A stretch of 64,000 nucleotides of DNA from Gemmatimonadota bacterium (lineage in GTDB: Bacteria > Gemmatimonadota > Gemmatimonadetes > Longimicrobiales > Gaopeijiaceae). The stretch spans positions 374,501 to 438,500 of the forward strand of contig JAUIEJ010000002.1 of the NCBI GenBank assembly GCA_030428885.1, in the 5' to 3' direction. Under the pieces are notes generated by a model that saw only the letters and a list, made by a program, of their open reading frames with translations, made no database searches and was not told the DNA's origin. Shown here piece by piece: positions 1 through 41,761 of this stretch. Within the stretch, counting starts at the first letter, position 1. Each line of letters opens with the position of its first letter. Both the position numbers and the translations under genes were made by a program.

Positions 1-182
1 GGGGGGGACGCGGTGTCGTGGGGTACCAGGGCGAGAAGGCGAGGTGGGAGGGAGCCATCACAGGACCTGCCGTTCGGAGTCATACGGACCGACGTGACCC
101 CTGGAATCTAACGGCATGTTTCGGGCGTTGTTCGGGGCGTTTTGGGCCTTTTCGCGCACCTCGGATGCCCCGGCAGCAGAAA

Positions 183-215
183 CCCACCGGCCGCGGGCGA
201 TCAGCGGCCGGTGGG
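183..215 (-). terminator. Hairpin terminator after the M56 gene
   Basis: A perfect 12-bp stem (183-194 with 204-215) encloses a 9-nt loop, 24 bp beyond the stop of the M56 gene. Read on the minus strand the stem is followed by a short T run (GGGTTTCTG), which fits an intrinsic terminator for the blaI-M56 operon. Nothing convincing was seen in bases 1-182. Confidence 0.6.
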
Positions 216-238
216 CGCGTTGCGGGGGTGTCGGAGCC

Positions 239-1645
239 TCAGCGACTCGTCGACGCTCCGACGAGCTCGAGCTTGAGGAGTTCGTACTCTCTCACCCGCT
301 CTTCGTACAGATCGTGGAGAAGCCCCGCCCGGGTCATGAGGCGCCGGGTGAGTTCGGTGGCCTCGCCTCGGGCCCGTGCTTCCTGCGCCGCCTGGAAGCG
401 AGCATCGATCTGATCGATCTCCGCCGACAGGTAGCCGATCTGCGCGTCGAGTCGCGCCAGGGCCCGCTCCGTGGCCTGGGAGAGAGACGCCGTGCCCGCC
501 ACGGAAACCGACTGATCCACGGAGATCAACCGATCCAGGGACATCGACCCATCCACGGTCCCGACGCCGGCCACCTGACCCACCACCACCGGCTCCGCCT
601 CCACGGCCTCGCCCTCCACCACACTCTCGTTGAAGCTGAAGCACGCCCCCAGAAGGGCCGTGCCGGCCAGAAGCGCAGCCGCCGCCAGCCCCGTTCCCAA
701 ACCCGACGACGACGCGCGATTCTCGAAGTTCTTCATGGTCTCGATCCTCTCTCTCAGATGGGAAACGGGTGTCGCGAGTCCGGCCGCCAGTCCGTAGTGG
801 GGCGGGACGCGAGCACCCAGGGTGAACAGAAGTCCGGCGTACTCCCCGGCGCGGGCCTCGCGGGTGGCCAGCACCTCGAGGTCACACGAGGCCTCCCGAT
901 GCCGCTCGACATCGCGGGTGAGAAGCCGCACCAGGGGATGGAAGGCGAAGAGGGCCCGCACCGAGCTCTCGGCCACGGCCCAGGCGAAGTCGTGGCGGGC
1001 CACGTGAATCAGTTCGTGGACCAAGGTCATGCGGAGTTCATCGGGCCGATCCACCAGCGCCGCGGGGATCACGATCACGGGCCGGCGCCACCCGAAGGTC
1101 ATGGGCACCGAGCCGTCGCCCCCTTGCACCAGCGCCACGGGCCGACGCACACCCAGCCGTCGGCGGAGTCGCTCGAGCATTTCATGGGACGCCGGATCGG
1201 CCACCGGCCGCGCCGATGCACCGATGCGACCCAGGGCTCGCAGTCGCAGGGGGATCCCCACGAGATGGAACGCAGCCAGGAGGAGGGCCCCGGCGGCCGC
1301 CAGTCCCGAGAACACCACCGGAAGATCGACGCCAGGCGCCACACTCGCCCGGGGCGACCCGATCACGGGATGCTCCGCCACCGCGTCCCGTGCCGAGCCC
1401 TGGACAGGAGCCGGCGAGAGCACCGGCTCCACCCCCTGCCCCACCGGCGTCCCCCAGCCCACCAGCAGGGCCAGCGGCAAGGCGAACAACAGCGCCTGCC
1501 CCAATCGGTAGCGGACCAGCGGATGGACGCCCCGCTGTCGCCGCAGCACCACGACCCCCACGCCCGCCGCCACCGTCCACACCCCCATGGGGGCCCACAC
1601 CGCTCCGGCGGCGAACCGCCCCAGGGCCATCAGCCCATCCATCAT
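239..1645 (-). CDS. BlaR1/MecR1-like M56 family membrane metalloprotease
   Basis: 468 residues. Hydrophobic segments lie near residues 5-35 and 48-66, with another near 108-130, followed by a zinc protease motif HELIH at 210-214 and a downstream Glu (E251, in EASCD) that fits the third M56 ligand. A further hydrophobic segment lies near 316-336, and the last 100 residues are helical and charged (coiled-coil-like). Family role: M56 proteases sense a signal and cleave a BlaI-type repressor. The C-terminal region does not show the penicillin-binding sensor domain of true BlaR1 (no SxxK/SxN/KTG set), so the signal is probably not a beta-lactam. The gene starts 10 bp after blaI, with GGAGGGG ahead of two tandem ATG codons (1645 or 1642). 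Confidence 0.85.
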   Translation of the reverse strand: MMDGLMALGRFAAGAVWAPMGVWTVAAGVGVVVLRRQRGVHPLVRYRLGQALLFALPLALLVGWGTPVGQGVEPVLSPAPVQGSARDAVAEHPVIGSPRASVAPGVDLPVVFSGLAAAGALLLAAFHLVGIPLRLRALGRIGASARPVADPASHEMLERLRRRLGVRRPVALVQGGDGSVPMTFGWRRPVIVIPAALVDRPDELRMTLVHELIHVARHDFAWAVAESSVRALFAFHPLVRLLTRDVERHREASCDLEVLATREARAGEYAGLLFTLGARVPPHYGLAAGLATPVSHLRERIETMKNFENRASSSGLGTGLAAAALLAGTALLGACFSFNESVVEGEAVEAEPVVVGQVAGVGTVDGSMSLDRLISVDQSVSVAGTASLSQATERALARLDAQIGYLSAEIDQIDARFQAAQEARARGEATELTRRLMTRAGLLHDLYEERVREYELLKLELVGASTSR

Positions 1646-34671: not shown

Positions 34672-35070
34672 TCAGTTCCCGCCGGACTCGCCGCCGGCGT
34701 TGCCGCCGGACTCGCCGCCCGCGTCGCCCCCGGCGCCGCCGGGGGCCGGGGCCGGCGCGCCGTCGTCCAGTCCCGGAAGCACCGGCGCCGGGGCCGAGGC
34801 CGGGGCGTCGGGCCGCAGGATCGACGTGGGCGCCGCCGACCGGGACGACATGATGGAGAGCACCAGGGACAGGACCATGAAGATCGTGCCCGACGTCCAC
34901 GTGGCCCGGGTCAGGACCGTGGTGGCCTGACGCCCACCGAGGATCCCGTCGGTGGCCGCGGCGCCTCCGCCCATGGCCGCCAGTCCCCCGCCCTTCCCGG
35001 ACTGGAGGAGGATGACGACGCACAGGAAGACCGCGTCGAGGATCAGGACGGTGAGAAGAAATCCGTACAT
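34672..35070 (-). CDS. secG: SecG subunit of the Sec translocon
   Basis: 132 residues. Two hydrophobic helices (about 4-22 and 57-76) flank the conserved cytoplasmic loop LLQSGKGGGLAAMGGG, as in SecG. The C-terminal tail of about 50 residues is Pro/Gly-rich and ends in a duplicated AGGESGGN unit. The ATG at 35070 fits the first helix. secG following tpiA is a common bacterial order. Confidence 0.9.
   Translation of the reverse strand: MYGFLLTVLILDAVFLCVVILLQSGKGGGLAAMGGGAAATDGILGGRQATTVLTRATWTSGTIFMVLSLVLSIMSSRSAAPTSILRPDAPASAPAPVLPGLDDGAPAPAPGGAGGDAGGESGGNAGGESGGN
34675..34722. repeat. 24-bp tandem repeat in the secG tail
   Basis: Two nearly identical 24-bp units (34675-34698 and 34699-34722) code the repeated Gly/Glu/Ser/Asn tail of SecG. 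Repeat number may vary between strains. Confidence 0.7.
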
Positions 35071-35155: not shown

Positions 35156-35899
35156 TCAGGCGGCGGCGATGATCCCGGCGAAGTCCTCCGCCTTCAGCGA
35201 GGCTCCTCCCACCAGCACCCCGTCGACCCCGAGGGCGTCCATGAGGTCCGCGGCGTTGCCCGGCTTCACGCTGCCCCCGTACAGAATCGGCACGGCGTCG
35301 CTGTCGCCCCCGTGCACCTCCCGGAGGCGGGCCCGGAGCAGCCCGTGGGCCTCGGCGGCATCGTCGGGGGTGGCGGTCTCTCCGGTGCCGATGGCCCACA
35401 CGGGCTCGTAGGCCACCATGTACCGTGCCCCCGCCGGGAGGGAGGCGAGAGCCGCCCGGATCTGTCGATCCAGGACCGCCTCGAGCTGTCCGGCCTTCCG
35501 CTGGTCCAGGGTCTCGCCGACGCAGATCACCGGCTCGAGGCCGTGCTGGAGCACCCGCGCCACCTTGGCGGCCACGTCGGCGTCGGTTTCGCCGAAGACG
35601 TGGCGCCGCTCCGAGTGCCCCACCAGGACCAGCCCGGCACCGGCCTCGGCCGCCATGGCCACCGATGTCTCTCCCGTGTACGCCCCCGACTCGGCGGCAT
35701 GGACGTTCTGGACGCCGAGCTCGATGCGGGCGTCCCGCCCCGGGGCCCCCACGGCGGCCGGCAGGCAGATGGCCGGCGGGAAGATGGCGACCCGGGGCCC
35801 GTCGGGCACCGAGCCCAGAGCCTCGAAGAAGCTCCGGGTCGCATCGGGACCGTGATTCATCTTCCAGTTTCCAGCCACCACTCGCCGCGGCGTGCTCAC
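35156..35899 (-). CDS. tpiA: Triosephosphate isomerase
   Basis: 247 residues, the normal length. Active-site residues are visible: N and K in GNWKMN (near 11-13), H in GHSERR, E in AYEPVWAIGTG, and the phosphate loop YGGSVKPGN. It interconverts dihydroxyacetone phosphate and glyceraldehyde 3-phosphate. The GTG start overlaps the pgk stop (GTGA), with GGAG ahead, so the two are coupled. Longer in-frame sequence lies inside pgk. Confidence 0.96.
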   Translation of the reverse strand: MSTPRRVVAGNWKMNHGPDATRSFFEALGSVPDGPRVAIFPPAICLPAAVGAPGRDARIELGVQNVHAAESGAYTGETSVAMAAEAGAGLVLVGHSERRHVFGETDADVAAKVARVLQHGLEPVICVGETLDQRKAGQLEAVLDRQIRAALASLPAGARYMVAYEPVWAIGTGETATPDDAAEAHGLLRARLREVHGGDSDAVPILYGGSVKPGNAADLMDALGVDGVLVGGASLKAEDFAGIIAAA

Positions 35900-37110
35900 G
35901 AGGCTTCTCCGTCGCTGAGGGCATCGATCCCCGGCAGGGAGCGCCCCGCCAGGAGTTCCAGGGAGGCGCCGCCTCCGGTGGAGATGTGGGTCAGGCGCTC
36001 GGCCACCCCCGCCACTTCCGCCGCCGCCGCCGAATCCCCTCCGCCCAGGACCGTGACGGCGCCCGCGTCGGCGGCCTCGGCCACGGCCCGGGCCAGATGC
36101 CCCGTGCCGTGGCGGAACGGGTCGAGTTCGAAGACGCCCATGGGCCCGTTCCACACCACGGTCCGGGCCGAACGGATCTCATCGGCGAAGAGGGCCTCGG
36201 TGTCGGGCCCCACGTCGCCGATGCGGTCCCCGGCGGCCACCTCGGAGCGGGGCACGATCCGCACGTCGGCATCGGGAGCGATCTCGCGGGCGACCCGGAC
36301 GTCCACGGGCAGGAGGAGCTTGTCGCCCGCCCGGTCCAGGAGGTCCCGCGCCATGTCCACCCGATCGGGCTCCACGAGGGAGTCGCCGACCTCGAGTCCC
36401 ATGGCCAGGAAGAAGGTGTTGGCCATGGCTCCCCCCACCAGGAGTCGATCCACCCGGGGCAGGAGCGCCTCCACCACGTCGATCTTCCCGGAGATCTTGG
36501 CGCCGCCCAGGACCCCCACGAAGGGCCGCTCGGGATCGTCGAGGGCTTCGCCCAGGAAGGTGAGTTCCTTCTCCAGGAGCAGCCCCGCCACGGCGCGCCC
36601 TCCCGCCGCCCGCACCACCCGGGCCACGCCCTCGGTGGAGGCGTGGGCGCGATGGGCGGTGCCGAAAGCGTCGTTGACGTAGAGTTCGCCGTACCCCGCC
36701 AGAGCCTCGGCGAGGCTGGGGTCGTTGGCGGTCTCCCGGGGGTCGAATCGGGTGTTCTCCAGGAGGAGAATCTCACCGTCGCCCAGGGATTCCACGGCGG
36801 CCCGGGCCTCGGGGCCCACGAGATCGGCCACGAACCGCACCGGCGCCTCCAGGGCGTCGTCCAGGGCGCGGGCCACGGGCGCGAGGGAGTACTCGGGGTT
36901 CACGGTGCCCTTGGGCCGCCCCAGGTGGGACAGGAGCACCACCCGCCCTCCGGCGTCGGTCAGACGGCGGAGCGTGGGGAGGCAGGCCTGGATCCGGGTG
37001 TCGTCGGACACGCGCCCGTGGGAGAGGGGCACGTTGAGGTCGGCCCGGACCAGGATCCGACGGCCCCGAAGGTCGCCGTCGGGGAGGGCCGAAAGCAGGG
37101 TCTTCGCCAT
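35896..37110 (-). CDS. pgk: Phosphoglycerate kinase
   Basis: 404 residues. Family landmarks are RADLNVPLSHGRVSDDTRI, SHLGRPKG, LLLENTRFDPRE, NDAFGTAHRAHAS, VLGGAKISGKID and the nucleotide-side WNGPMGVFE and GGGDSAAAA. It makes ATP from 1,3-bisphosphoglycerate. The ATG at 37110 begins the first conserved segment (MAKTLLSAL). It lies 44 bp after the TonB/TPR gene and is coupled to tpiA. Confidence 0.96.
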   Translation of the reverse strand: MAKTLLSALPDGDLRGRRILVRADLNVPLSHGRVSDDTRIQACLPTLRRLTDAGGRVVLLSHLGRPKGTVNPEYSLAPVARALDDALEAPVRFVADLVGPEARAAVESLGDGEILLLENTRFDPRETANDPSLAEALAGYGELYVNDAFGTAHRAHASTEGVARVVRAAGGRAVAGLLLEKELTFLGEALDDPERPFVGVLGGAKISGKIDVVEALLPRVDRLLVGGAMANTFFLAMGLEVGDSLVEPDRVDMARDLLDRAGDKLLLPVDVRVAREIAPDADVRIVPRSEVAAGDRIGDVGPDTEALFADEIRSARTVVWNGPMGVFELDPFRHGTGHLARAVAEAADAGAVTVLGGGDSAAAAEVAGVAERLTHISTGGGASLELLAGRSLPGIDALSDGEAS

Positions 37111-37154: not shown

Positions 37155-40007
37155 CTAGTCGAGCTCGTAGGCCGCCTCCAGCCCGGCCCCCACCGGGGCC
37201 GACTCGTCGGCCTCGGTCCGGATCCGCACCCCCGCCCGCTCCTCCACCACCTCCGATCCGTCGGGCCGTTCGACCCGCACGCGGATCGTGTAGACGCCCG
37301 ACGCCACGTCGGCGAGATCGAGGGTCAGGTACTCCACCGCCCGCCCGCCCCGCCCTGCGGGACTCCGGGTCCACTCGGTACCGAAGAGGGTCTGCCCCCC
37401 GGGACGGAACGACACCGCTCGGGACGCGCCCCCCTGGGCCGCCTCGAGCTCCACCTTGACCCGGTAGAACCGGTTGCCCTCGGCGGGAAGGTCGTACAGT
37501 TCGAAGAGGATCCCGACCTGGTCGTCGTCCACCACGTCGGGCCGCCCCAGGGGCGACACCCAGGCGTCGGTGCGCCCGATGTCCCGCTCCATGGGCGCCG
37601 CCGGACGCACCACCATGAGGTCGGAGATCCGGCGATCCTCGGTGGCGTCGGCGCCGCGGAAGGCCGGGAGCCGGAGCGCGGCGGCCTGGTGGGTCCGGGG
37701 GTTGTAGAGCTCCACGGCGAGGCCGGCCGCGTCGGCGCCGAAGCCCGTGCGCAGCCGCACCGAGTCACCGGCGATGCGCCGGGTCGTGGCGCTCAGCCGC
37801 GACCCGTCGGCCGCCAGCACGAAGAGCCCGAGATCGAGGGAGTCGCCCTCGAAGGTCTCCAGCGCCTGGGGCACCTCGAGCTGGACGTCGAGTTCCCCGG
37901 TCCCCGGCGCGTCGCCCCGGAAGCGGGCGGCCTGAGCCGGGAGGGAGAAGAGCGACCGGGCCCGGGTGCCGTACCAGTGGGGGAAGACGCTGCGGAGGTC
38001 TTCCAGGTAGGCCGCGGCTTCGGGCGTGTACGTGCGGGTGTCGGAGGTGGCCGGCCTGGAGAAGGTCAGGTCGGGCCCCTGCCCGTAGTCCCAGAACTCC
38101 GTCCGGAGATCGGCCGTGCCGAAAGCCCGCACCGTCTCGGGCCGGCCGTAGCGCAGCCAGAGCCGGGCGGCGTCGGAGTCGAGCCCGCCGAACCGGAGGT
38201 AGGCGTACGCCGCCCGGGCCAGGTGCTCGGTCTCCCGCTCGTTCACCGAGGTGTTGAGGATGGGGTCCAGATTGCGCCACGGATCCTCGCCCTCGGACCC
38301 CGCGTCGAGATCGAGGACCGCCACGTCGCGGAAGGTCGCCTCGACGTCCTCACCCAGCACCACGAAGGCCTGGGAGAAATCGTCCAGGGCTTCTTCGGCG
38401 CGCCCGAGGCGCTGGAGGGCCAGCCCGCTCAGCAGGAAACTGTAGGGATGCCCCTGGGTGGCCCACGCGAACCGACGGGCCCCGTTGAGCACGTCGCGCC
38501 AGATCCCGTCGTCGGCGGCGTCCAGGAGAATCGCCACGTTGGCGCCCACGTGACCCGGGAAGGCGTCCAGGGCGGCCTCGAAGCGCTCCACCATGGCCCG
38601 GCGCTCGGCCGGGCCGTCGCCCACGGGCTCGAAGGAGGCGGCCATGACGGCCCCCAGGTCGGCGGGGCAGACGTAATTCCAGGCCACCAGGGTGCCGATC
38701 TCCGAGCCGGCGCCGTCGCGGCGGGAGCAGGCCAGCCCGTCCAGGGCCTGGGCGGGCACGCTGCCCAGGTGGGCCGACGTGAGCCACGACTCCCGCACGA
38801 TGCTCCCGAGCTCGAAGTTCAGCTCCGCCACCAGGCGGGGCGACACCGGCCGGGCGCCGCGGTTCGCGCGCTCGAGGCCGCGGGCGAGAAGATCCCGGGC
38901 CTCGGCCCGCAGGCCCTGCTTGCGGCGGATGCGGGCCAGGGCCAGGGGCGGCGCCGGGTTGTCGGGGTCCCGGGCCATGGCCCGCTCCAACTCCCGCACC
39001 ACGTCGCTACGCCACCGCAGGGGACTCACCCCCGCCGGCGGCTCCCCGGCCAGGACTCCGTCCAGCGACCCCAGGCGGGCCTCCACCGATTCCTCCGACT
39101 CGCCCATGGCCAGACCCAGGAGTTCCCGGGCCTCCATGCGGATGTTCGTCGGCACCGAGAACGTCAGGGGCCCCTCGTCGGGGAGTTCGTAGGCGAACCC
39201 GTCGGGGAGTTCGGGATCGGCCACCGGCACCACCTCGGGAGGCGTCCACTCCTCCTCCAGGGGCACGGGCTCGAACACCAGGTCGAACTCCACGTAGGTC
39301 CCCACGGGGACTCCGTCGCGGGTCGCGGGGTGGAACCGGAGCGATCGCGCTCCCTGCATGGCGGCGCGGTCCAGCGCCGGCACGCCGGAGTTCCGGTGGG
39401 CCTGGACGTTGTCCACCGACCCGTCCTCGGCCACCCAGAGGAGGAGTCCCACGGTTCCCCCTACCCCGGCCCGCTGGAGGGCCTCGGGGTAGTGACGACG
39501 GATGACCTCCCGGTCGGCGCCTTCGTCCACCAGCGTCGGGAAGGTCATGGCCACCGGGCTGAAGGCCGGCAGTTCCTCGACCGACGCGGCGGTGACCACC
39601 TCCGCGGCGGGCTGGGACGGCGCCGGCACCCGCACCGCGGGGAGGGTCGTGGTGGGCACGGCCTCCGCCGAGCCCTGGGGCACCATCACGGGGATCTCAG
39701 CCACCACCGGCGCCGGAGCCTGGAAGGCGTCCAGGAGCCGCTGGAATCCGTCCACCAGCGACGCCCGAGCCGGCGGCACGGCCAGCCCGGTGAGGGTGAG
39801 GGACACCACCGACGCCGCCACCAGGCGACGCACGAAGGCGCCGCCGGGGCGTCGGGGGCCCCGGATCCACCGCGCCTCGAGTTCGGCCTCGAGTTCGGGG
39901 GCGAACGACGGCCGCTCGGCGGCGGAGAACCGCGCCAGTTCGGCGTCGAGTTCCGCCAGATCGGGCGGGAGCCCGGAGAGGGGCTCGGGGTGAGAAGGCT
40001 GGTTCAT
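37155..40007 (-). CDS. Large membrane protein: anti-sigma-like N terminus, TonB C-terminal-type domain, TPR, GWxTD-like domain
   Basis: 950 residues. A 58-residue cytoplasmic segment (DLAELDAELARFSAAERPSF and acidic helices) precedes one membrane helix (about 61-79). Outside follow a Pro-rich linker and a TonB C-terminal-type domain (about 172-250: PEALQRAGVGGTVGLLLWV, DGSVDNVQAHRNSG, FHPATRDGVPVGTYVEFDLVF). TPR-like helices lie near 320-540, and a GWxTD-like part near 580-690 (ARLWLRYGRPETVRAFG, TEFWDYG). A beta-rich tail ends the protein. The gene starts 28 bp after an ECF sigma gene, so the short cytoplasmic part could bind that factor. This role is inference; no zinc anti-sigma motif is present. 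Confidence 0.75.
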   Translation of the reverse strand: MNQPSHPEPLSGLPPDLAELDAELARFSAAERPSFAPELEAELEARWIRGPRRPGGAFVRRLVAASVVSLTLTGLAVPPARASLVDGFQRLLDAFQAPAPVVAEIPVMVPQGSAEAVPTTTLPAVRVPAPSQPAAEVVTAASVEELPAFSPVAMTFPTLVDEGADREVIRRHYPEALQRAGVGGTVGLLLWVAEDGSVDNVQAHRNSGVPALDRAAMQGARSLRFHPATRDGVPVGTYVEFDLVFEPVPLEEEWTPPEVVPVADPELPDGFAYELPDEGPLTFSVPTNIRMEARELLGLAMGESEESVEARLGSLDGVLAGEPPAGVSPLRWRSDVVRELERAMARDPDNPAPPLALARIRRKQGLRAEARDLLARGLERANRGARPVSPRLVAELNFELGSIVRESWLTSAHLGSVPAQALDGLACSRRDGAGSEIGTLVAWNYVCPADLGAVMAASFEPVGDGPAERRAMVERFEAALDAFPGHVGANVAILLDAADDGIWRDVLNGARRFAWATQGHPYSFLLSGLALQRLGRAEEALDDFSQAFVVLGEDVEATFRDVAVLDLDAGSEGEDPWRNLDPILNTSVNERETEHLARAAYAYLRFGGLDSDAARLWLRYGRPETVRAFGTADLRTEFWDYGQGPDLTFSRPATSDTRTYTPEAAAYLEDLRSVFPHWYGTRARSLFSLPAQAARFRGDAPGTGELDVQLEVPQALETFEGDSLDLGLFVLAADGSRLSATTRRIAGDSVRLRTGFGADAAGLAVELYNPRTHQAAALRLPAFRGADATEDRRISDLMVVRPAAPMERDIGRTDAWVSPLGRPDVVDDDQVGILFELYDLPAEGNRFYRVKVELEAAQGGASRAVSFRPGGQTLFGTEWTRSPAGRGGRAVEYLTLDLADVASGVYTIRVRVERPDGSEVVEERAGVRIRTEADESAPVGAGLEAAYELD

Positions 40008-40035
40008 CGAATCTATGGGCGACCGTGTCGCATCG

Positions 40036-40650
40036 TCAGGTATTCGGAGCGTCGAGCTTCTCGACGGCGGTCTTCAGCCGCTTGAGGGCCCGATGCAGTC
40101 GCACCGCCACGGCGTTGTTGCTGATGCCCAGGGCCTCGGCGATCTCGCTGTTGCCCAGGCCCGCGCCGTAACGGAGGGAGAGGATCTCCTGGTCGGCACG
40201 CCGCAGCGTCTGATTGCCGTTCAGGAGCTTCTGGATGCGTTCCTGCCGCAGCACCCGCTCGTCCTGGGAGGGGACGTCGGCCACCAGGTCGGGAACACGA
40301 TCCAGGGAGACGTGGAGCGACCCCCGGCGCCGAAGCGCCCGGAGGTGGTCCGTCACCGCGTTGCGGGCGATGCGGAGGAGCCAGGTTCGCGGCGAGGCGA
40401 GGTTGGCGTCGTAGCGGTCCAGGGACCGCAGGGCCTTCATGAAGACCTCCGAGGTCACGTCCTCGGCGGCTTCCCGCGTGGCGACCCGGAAGCGCACGTA
40501 CCGGTAGACCACCGAACGGTGATCGTGGTACCAGGCCTCGAAGTCGTGGGGAAGCGCGCTCTCCCGGACCGGAACGCTCCGCCCCTCCCGGGGCCGTACG
40601 TCCGCGTCCTGCCCGGACTCCACCGTCGAACCCACCGCACGTCTCGTCAT
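40036..40650 (-). CDS. ECF sigma factor
   Basis: 204 residues. Region 2 (EDVTSEVFMKALRSLDRYDANLASPRTWLLRIARNAVTDHLR) and region 4 (RADQEILSLRYGAGLGNSEIAEALGISNNAVAVRLHRALKRLK) are clear. About 33 residues precede region 2. No ordinary anti-sigma gene is adjacent; the next gene encodes the large membrane protein with TonB and TPR parts, the likely partner. Confidence 0.92.
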   Translation of the reverse strand: MTRRAVGSTVESGQDADVRPREGRSVPVRESALPHDFEAWYHDHRSVVYRYVRFRVATREAAEDVTSEVFMKALRSLDRYDANLASPRTWLLRIARNAVTDHLRALRRRGSLHVSLDRVPDLVADVPSQDERVLRQERIQKLLNGNQTLRRADQEILSLRYGAGLGNSEIAEALGISNNAVAVRLHRALKRLKTAVEKLDAPNT

Positions 40651-40667
40651 GTCCGGTAGTACGCAAT

Positions 40668-40701
40668 CCGGGGGCGCGGGTTACACAGCCCGCGCCCCCG
40701 G
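40668..40701 (-). terminator. Hairpin terminator after gap
   Basis: A perfect 13-bp stem (CCGGGGGCGCGGG, 40668-40680, with CCCGCGCCCCCGG, 40689-40701) encloses an 8-nt loop. It lies 49 bp beyond the gap stop and 17 bp before the ECF sigma start. ATTGCG follows on the minus strand, a weak T content. It separates the yicC-to-gap run from the sigma gene. Confidence 0.6.

Positions 40702-40750: not shown

Positions 40751-41761
<1,011 letters not shown>

Follow-up and report, generated by a model that had tools for sequence, protein, structure and literature searches.

Gene order at the locus

The window analyzed here (the whole stretch of 64,000 nucleotides from a Gemmatimonadota bacterium) contains on its minus strand the gene of an ECF sigma factor, which is followed after 28 nt by the gene of a large membrane protein (hereafter, the partner). 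Features and coordinates are shown in Table 1. A first-pass annotation of this DNA had described a sigma gene followed at this distance by a single-pass membrane protein, with no separate anti-sigma gene. Both descriptions were confirmed: the two open reading frames were recovered, hydropathy analysis revealed one membrane segment (residues 62-78) and no other in the 950 residues, and no separate anti-sigma gene adjoins the sigma gene because its only neighbors are gap and the partner gene. A new finding is that the pair sits inside a gap-pgk-tpi-secG operon.

Table 1. Features of the sigma-partner locus (window positions, with partner residues where applicable)
Feature	Position	Strand	Basis or remark
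secG	34672..35070	-	sequence, start chosen by eye; gene order conserved
tpiA	35156..35899	-	sequence, start chosen by eye
pgk	35896..37110	-	directly downstream of partner, 44 nt
Putative anti-sigma/TonB-domain sensor, 950 aa	37155..40007	-	
Optional region: weak GWxTD-like stretch at 576-641, followed by beta-rich domains from about 685 to 930	37221..38282 (residues 576-929)	-	TIGR04514 below cut-off, AF2
TPR-like helical array, optional in relatives	38331..39149 (residues 287-559)	-	Pfam, AF2, fold match
TonB C-terminal domain	39270..39554 (residues about 152-246)	-	Pfam TonB_C, fold match
Membrane helix (57-76), PPARAS motif, second helix (78-95)	39723..39839 (residues 57-95)	-	AF2, hydropathy
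Candidate anti-sigma domain (clamp)	39858..40007 (residues 1-50)	-	conserved motif, predicted helices
ECF sigma factor, 204 aa, BldN-like	40036..40650	-	Pfam/NCBIfam
Predicted ECF-type self-promoter	40660..40685	-	motif match upstream of sigma
gap (GAPDH)	40751..41761	-	directly upstream of sigma

The sigma factor and its predicted promoter

Sigma regions 2 and 4 could both be identified in the window sigma factor (Pfam Sigma70_r2, E 2.5e-17; Sigma70_r4_2, E 1.2e-11). Its closest solved relative was sigma-BldN of Streptomyces (6dxo_A, E 8.3e-15), and its score against the BldN family model TIGR02952 (129.3 bits) was under the curated cut-off of 206.45. Upstream of the gene lie a -35 box TGTAAC (40680-40685), a 16-nt spacer and a -10 box CGTA (40660-40663), 9 nt upstream of the start codon of the sigma gene (ATG); the transcript is thus predicted to be leaderless or nearly so. 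The strict motif was present in 32 of 51 orthologous gap-sigma intervals, compared with 0.03 expected, and a loose version in 37, with 14 genomes lacking even the latter. No strict motif was found before gap (0/47) or before pgk (0/46). The boxes resemble the BldN motif CGTAACN16CGTTGA, as given in an excerpt of PMC2375139, and related pairs in another family (f4) carry [TCG]GTGAC-N16-CGTA boxes. Judging from these motifs, the promoter is presumably recognized by the sigma factor itself.

A wider regulon was considered and rejected. In five genomes, 10 non-self sites fitted the strict pattern and 9 fitted a reversed-pattern control, unevenly distributed (5 versus 0 in the control in genome G003), and a scan with one mismatch and a spacer of 16 only gave 106 matches in all versus 199 in the control. 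Because there was no overall excess over the control, no wider regulon is claimed, and the operon of the sigma factor itself is the only visible target. Genes preceded by different boxes, or a small number of genes in G003, may still be under its control.

Architecture of the partner protein

The usual core of the partner comprises a cytoplasmic domain, a membrane helix, a proline-rich linker and a TonB C-terminal domain. All 48 partners of at least 150 aa had a membrane segment close to the N-terminus (a second TM-like segment was flagged in four), and the N-terminus is predicted to lie in the cytoplasm. The first ~50 residues, here referred to as the clamp, hold a conserved motif, LPPxLxxLDxxL...ExRxSFxPEL, and AF2 predicted two helices in them (residues 15-25 and 36-48) with low confidence. 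The short acidic-helical cytoplasmic end noted in the first-pass annotation is indeed acidic, and its helical character appears in the same low-confidence prediction. Residues 1-58 matched no Pfam or NCBIfam family, and the best match of the clamp profile among solved structures (E 0.16) was not an anti-sigma protein; the candidate anti-sigma domain thus lies outside the sequence libraries used. We also folded a natural sigma-partner read-through chain with AF2 from alignment A4, alignments A2 and A3 being set aside for their few or misaligned clamp rows. The model had a pTM of 0.40 with a low-confidence clamp, and its VIA-align matches covered residues 3-176 with sigma and RNA polymerase folds only.

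Beyond the membrane, a disordered proline-rich linker (residues 95-151) leads to the TonB C-terminal domain. The TonB-like region proposed earlier was well supported by both sequence (Pfam TonB_C, E 2.1e-14, residues 171-246) and fold, as the domain model matched TonB in complex with TbpA (9dc4_T; Z 11.3, rmsd 2.0, 86 aligned) and in complex with FoxA (6i97_D; Z 10.9, rmsd 2.1, 90 aligned). The TPR region, also proposed earlier, is solid as a fold, and the structure model of the 950-residue protein matched mostly TPR proteins, with its beta domains and clamp hardly covered by the comparison. The proposed GWxTD-like region is a hint only (NCBIfam TIGR04514, 18.2 bits versus a cut-off of 28), and a literature search for 'GWxTD' returned no paper.

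Partner size varied greatly among relatives. Almost half of the partners (24 of 51) were only 250-277 aa long and lacked the TPR array; partners of ~265 aa lacked the GWxTD-like stretch and beta domains as well, and partners of ~700 aa retained the GWxTD-like stretch without the beta domains. It should be noted that these lengths are accurate to a few residues, the starts being taken from the profile match, and that contig ends truncate the partners in G004, G007, G023 and G133. With 24 of 51 partners lacking it, the TPR/GWxTD part cannot be the core sensor. The enlargement by TPR and beta domains was seen in the genus of the window; elsewhere, relatives of these domains are separate proteins with signal-peptide-like starts.

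Conservation of the sigma-partner pair

Among 121 genomes of the family, 51 had a match to this sigma factor and 70, some of them incomplete, had none. The clamp domain directly follows the sigma factor in 50 of the 51 sigma-bearing genomes, a recurrence that excludes chance pairing and bears out the adjacency that the first-pass annotation had proposed to check across relatives. In family f4, 7 of 8 genomes have the same clamp behind a related sigma factor (42-46% identity), joined to a different periplasmic part; in one of these (G160) the pair is duplicated in tandem and both copies are still paired. The clamp was retained in G012 although TonB_C was lost. In genus g13 both genes appeared to decay jointly, as read by eye: in G090 the DNA running from sigma region 4 into the partner tail appears to be deleted, and G017 has stops in both genes. 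A mirror-tree analysis gave a partial correlation of 0.32 between sigma factor and clamp (0 of 2000 permutations, 41 genomes) and of 0.11 between sigma factor and TonB domain (232 of 2000). The bystander SecG reached 0.27 with the sigma factor in a 21-genome subset (10 of 2000), which weakens the co-evolution signal. A weak clamp match in family f5 (G174, E 6.7e-4) was dropped as chance because the locus has neither a sigma factor nor a receptor homolog.

A gene for a TonB-dependent receptor directly follows the pair in all seven f4 genomes that have it. In the family of the window (f1), no such receptor was found adjoining the pair among the identified genes, the neighbors being gap and pgk. 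Pfam and NCBIfam revealed no FecR- or STN-type periplasmic domain in the partners, and no STN match was found in five scanned f4 receptors. Judging from its fold and from the f4 receptor genes, the TonB domain probably binds TonB-dependent receptors of the outer membrane or some other component of the envelope. The earlier suggestion that the partner may read outer-membrane contact fits this domain and the receptor genes beside the f4 pairs.

The glycolytic operon

The position of the pair between gap and pgk is kept over 16 genera, as judged with gap, pgk, SecG and PdhB queries, on which all statements on neighboring genes across genomes rest. All 51 loci have gap upstream of the sigma gene. 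The pgk start, placed by alignment, was at most 140 nt from the partner stop in 43 of 44 measured loci; the distance was at most 40 nt in 24 of them, with a 4-nt overlap in five, and the exception was G139 (2453 nt). In relatives lacking the sigma factor, gap adjoins pgk in all 19 with a pgk match (20 examined). Neither gap nor pgk was seen in the five f4 loci searched for them. Termination of transcription downstream of gap was considered and rejected as a general feature, given that a hairpin with z>2 was present in only 9 of 51 loci. The locus in the window is one of these nine (z 2.4), and single genomes have strong hairpins. Because the hairpin stands out in so few loci, pgk could also be supplied by transcription that continues from gap.

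Proposed mechanism and alternative explanations

We consider it fairly probable (about 0.75) that the locus encodes an ECF sigma factor and a membrane anti-sigma factor with a TonB docking domain, which together tune their own operon. The first ~50 residues of the partner would clamp the sigma factor in the cytoplasm, and the membrane helix and proline-rich linker would tie the clamp to the periplasmic TonB-type domain. A change in docking would allow the partner to be cleaved by proteolysis close to the membrane, releasing the sigma factor, by analogy with FoxR and RsiV. The free sigma factor would then transcribe its operon from the TGTAAC-N16-CGTA motif before its start codon, and the transcript would very likely continue into pgk, tpi and secG, since these genes follow closely. 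The one-piece anti-sigma sensor suggested in the first-pass annotation gains strong comparative support from the recurrent pairing, the portability of the clamp to f4, the joint decay in g13 and the self-promoter motif; the interpretation as a whole holds in part. A further-reaching proposal, which we regard as speculative, is that a TonB-shaped protein has turned into an anti-sigma factor that samples outer-membrane TonB-dependent receptors without energizing them, and that the sigma factor, dedicated to its own operon as far as is visible, sets the expression of lower glycolysis (pgk, tpi) and secG and so wires nutrient uptake at the outer membrane directly to central carbon metabolism. The cassette would have entered the gap-pgk operon by insertion or, in the relatives without it, have been lost cleanly.

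The fold of the TonB domain and the proline-rich linker are genuine, and the partner might accordingly be a further TonB energy transducer with an incidental cytoplasmic tail, the neighboring sigma factor controlling something else. This explanation is very improbable, as the tail is kept where TonB_C is lost (G012) or the periplasmic part differs (f4). Moreover, TonB uses an S-x-x-x-H motif with ExbB/D, and a His was present in the 17-residue membrane core of none of the 48 partners and S-x-x-x-H near the core of only one. A different question is how the anti-sigma factor would be released. The P-x-A-R-A sequence after the membrane helix could be the site-1 cut of signal peptidase, hidden by helix 78-95 until a periplasmic ligand binds. 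In favor of this, AF2 placed that helix directly after the membrane helix, a script found the -3/-1 rule of signal peptidase satisfied around the first Arg past the membrane core in 41 of 48 partners, and a strict A-R-A was present in 35. A precedent is RsiV, whose signal-peptidase site is shielded by amphipathic helices according to an excerpt of PMC6066255. However, seven partners missed the rule, three of them reading GTRDA; the rule is easily satisfied in alanine-rich sequence, and the amphipathicity of the next 18 residues was only mildly above that of shuffled sequences (z averaged 0.99 and exceeded 1 in 26 of 48). The window protein also had no Pfam match to an RsiV-type domain. Signal-peptidase release was rejected as the main mechanism when A-R-A, present in 17 of 18 aligned partners, met more exceptions once genus g25 was added, and we keep it as a rival that is possible but rather unlikely.

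The remaining alternative accepts a genuine pair but sees its location as historical and without regulatory meaning, with gap and pgk driven by an upstream housekeeping promoter. The lack of a general terminator after gap, the 70 of 121 genomes without a sigma match and the direct gap-pgk junction in 19 of 19 measured relatives all agree with such a passenger. Against it stand the conservation of the place over 16 genera, with gap always upstream and pgk nearly always close by (within 40 nt in 24 of 44 loci), and the absence of an overall excess of other promoter sites, which leaves the pair's own operon as the only visible target. We regard the passenger explanation as doubtful, and prefer a sigma factor and docking anti-sigma factor that tune the operon in which they lie.

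In the titles and abstract beginnings of the literature matches listed, neither an anti-sigma factor bearing a TonB C-terminal domain nor an ECF sigma gene placed within gap-pgk was described. Of interest are the candidate anti-sigma domain outside the libraries used, a TonB docking domain directly on a putative anti-sigma factor and an ECF sigma factor within a central glycolytic operon. If the preferred reading is true, it becomes testable whether a bacterium can set glycolytic gene expression by reading the engagement of outer-membrane receptors; confirmation would link central metabolism to the cell surface.

Comparison with known systems

The proposed arrangement resembles FecI-FecR-FecA and FoxI-FoxR-FoxA, which an excerpt of PMC11637429 describes as an ECF sigma factor with a single-pass anti-sigma factor whose periplasmic part contacts TonB-dependent receptors; the f4 pairs also have such a receptor next to them. 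In contrast, the window protein has a TonB C-terminal domain and no FecR/STN-type match in Pfam or NCBIfam, and the window operon holds glycolytic genes and no receptor. Sigma-BldN and RsbN share the nearest solved sigma factor, similar promoter boxes and spacer and, in an excerpt of PMC8103513, a membrane-bound helical anti-sigma factor. They differ in the family score given above and in their periplasmic part and neighbors, and the clamp profile matched no RsbN chain. The short two-helix class II anti-sigma domain of CnrY (PMC7406223, in excerpt) is similar to the clamp in predicted helices alone, with no sequence match. RsiV (excerpt of PMC6066255) and RsiP are anti-sigma factors cleaved by signal peptidase, and the partner may resemble them in a possible signal-peptidase site that immediately follows its membrane helix and precedes a further helix; Pfam revealed no shared domain, and the site misfits in 7 of 48 partners. 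Finally, VreA of the PUMA3 system of Pseudomonas aeruginosa has, according to an excerpt of PMC2729926, a TolA/TonB-like C-terminal domain in ECF signaling, but there the domain is on a separate periplasmic receptor and not on the anti-sigma factor.

The sigma factor and its membrane partner

The ECF sigma gene lies in a minus-strand row with its membrane partner, between gap and pgk, in a host genome of 5.39 Mb in 23 contigs. A domain search found both sigma regions; the best NCBIfam model was the BldN family, with a score under the cut-off, and the nearest solved relative was sigma-BldN (6dxo_A, E 8.3e-15). Among named relatives, the closest ones found were a Longimicrobiales metagenome assembly and a Gemmatimonadetes one (65% and 64% identity in the best segment of the 950-aa protein).

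Features of the window locus and of the 950-aa protein (AF2 model: pLDDT 76.4, pTM 0.60)
Feature	Position	Strand	Basis
gap	40751-41761	-	sequence
ECF sigma	40036-40650	-	sequence; regions 2 and 4 found
950-aa protein	37155-40007	-	sequence
pgk, tpi, secG		-	further genes of the same row
Two short clamp helices	residues 15-25, 36-48		AF2, low confidence
Membrane helix	residues 57-76		AF2
Helix after membrane segment	residues 78-95		AF2
Disordered linker	residues 95-151		AF2; 20% proline over 45 residues measured
TonB C-terminal domain	residues ~153-245		AF2
TPR-like array	residues 287-559		AF2
Mostly beta structure	residue 625 onward		AF2

The first-pass annotation had placed TonB-like, TPR and GWxTD-like regions in the outside part, and fold comparison agreed with the first two. 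The TonB domain matched 9dc4_T (Z 11.3, rmsd 2.0, 86 aligned) and 6i97_D (Z 10.9, rmsd 2.1, 90 aligned), both TonB domains solved in company of outer-membrane receptors, and the TPR array gave matches up to Z 15.2 (rmsd 4.5, 172 aligned), an arrangement that is common. The GWxTD assignment (TIGR04514) was weak; two other stretches of the same genome (G000:C5:184135-184404 and G000:C8:112093-112266) outscored the protein on this model.

Distribution and gene neighbourhood

A search of 121 genomes of the window's family found the sigma factor in 51, always as a single copy, and these accounted for every occurrence among the 154 genomes of the order. All 51 loci, window included, were read. The adjacency across genomes that the first-pass annotation had proposed to check was indeed conserved: a gene with the clamp-like N-terminal domain directly followed sigma in 50 loci. 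Partners were of 250-277 aa in 24 genomes (clamp, helix and TonB domain only), 699-707 aa in seven (TPR and GWxTD-like stretch, without the beta tail) and 938-955 aa in 12; those of G012 and G139 had 545 aa (without TonB_C) and 779 aa, four were cut by contig ends (G004, G007, G023 and G133), that of G017 was broken and G090 had none. Because of the short forms and those without the tail, the TPR and later parts are additions to a core. Relatives of the added part were found elsewhere as stand-alone proteins, with secreted-protein-like starts in five loci read by eye.

Upstream of sigma, gap was found in all 51 loci. The pgk start, placed by alignment, lay at most 140 nt after the partner stop in 43 of 44 measured loci (at most 40 nt in 24, with a 4-nt overlap in five), the exception being G139 (2453 nt). 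Among 20 sigma-less family members, gap adjoined pgk in all 19 with a pgk match (spacing 12-185 nt). Thus, as judged from gene order, the pair is a cassette inside an otherwise joined gap-pgk, which may have been gained or lost in individual lineages. The parts (ECF sigma, putative anti-sigma, TonB domain) are ordinary and their build and place unusual. By eye, a small ORF with a zinc-ribbon look (CPVCG...C..C) seemingly lay between gap and sigma in four genomes (L042 of G005, L049 of G007, L121 of G115 and L107 of G139).

The partner as a putative anti-sigma factor

We read the partner as a putative anti-sigma factor of the adjacent sigma, because its clamp pairs with sigma in nearly all loci, recurs after a related sigma on another periplasmic part, has conserved residues and belongs to a protein that decays jointly with sigma. 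In a 23-row alignment, E38 never varied, and L24, R32 and S34 were almost fully conserved. In both members read of genus g13 (G017, L047; G090, L120), sigma was broken and the partner broken or missing, with gap and pgk alignments spanning nearly the whole length. However, a profile search found no sequence relation between the clamp and solved anti-sigma domains, and the co-evolution test of sigma against clamp was weak; both count against this reading. AF2 on a natural read-through chain of sigma and clamp gave pTM 0.40, with the clamp at low confidence.

The recurrence concerns f4, a second family of the same class, in which eight genomes carried the clamp, seven of them after a related sigma. 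Its periplasmic part differs from the window's, having CCxDxDGxG.xDDG repeats, and gave no Pfam match in two proteins scanned. G160 (L207 4125-9073) showed a tandem arrangement of promoter, sigma, clamp, sigma, clamp and TonB-dependent receptor. In the eighth genome, G187, the clamp gene (L101 5021-5641) was preceded by CGTGAC-N16-CGTA, and no sigma homologue was found beside it. A 73-aa ORF upstream of sigma in G213 (L103 3893-4114) resembles a shortened second clamp copy.

Proposed signal and release

A TonB-dependent receptor gene directly followed the f4 pair in 7/7 genomes (Pfam barrel and plug in five scanned; the other two identified by similarity to one of those five); in the window's family the pair is flanked by gap and pgk, and the putative anti-sigma factor itself bears the TonB domain. 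The membrane helix of TonB carries an S-x-x-x-H motif, which was found in the membrane helix of only 1 of 48 partners. We therefore infer that the partner's TonB domain acts as a passive reader, not a motor. For FoxR, contact with the receptor's signalling domain is reported to protect against proteolysis (PMC11637429). We favour a similar protection-by-docking logic here, in which docking of the TonB domain would protect the partner from proteolysis; alternatively, sigma would be released by a signal-peptidase cut as in RsiV.

Predicted promoter before the sigma gene

The pattern TGTAA[CG]-N15..17-CGTA occurred between gap and sigma in 32 of 51 genomes (37 with the first T dropped), compared with 0.03 per 51 expected from first-order resampled sequences, and within 250 bp upstream of gap (0/47) or pgk (0/46) it was absent. 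From the CGTA end to the first in-frame start codon of sigma, the median distance was 9 nt (37 loci). For BldN, the reported recognition sequence is CGTAACN16CGTTGA (PMC2375139). In five genomes of the window's genus, the strict pattern had one to six matches per genome, always including its own site; the 10 non-self sites compared with 9 for a reversed-pattern control, and one mismatch gave no excess over control. By eye, an 11-bp G+C inverted repeat lies at 40670-40699 (minus strand) of the window, and the -35 box falls largely within its loop; hairpins between gap and sigma were no general feature among relatives. In f4, a [TC]GTGAC-N16-CGTA box lay near the mechanically chosen start in 5/6 loci; the box was TGTGAC in G160 and GGTGAC in G391, and in G151 the only site stood before the receptor gene instead.
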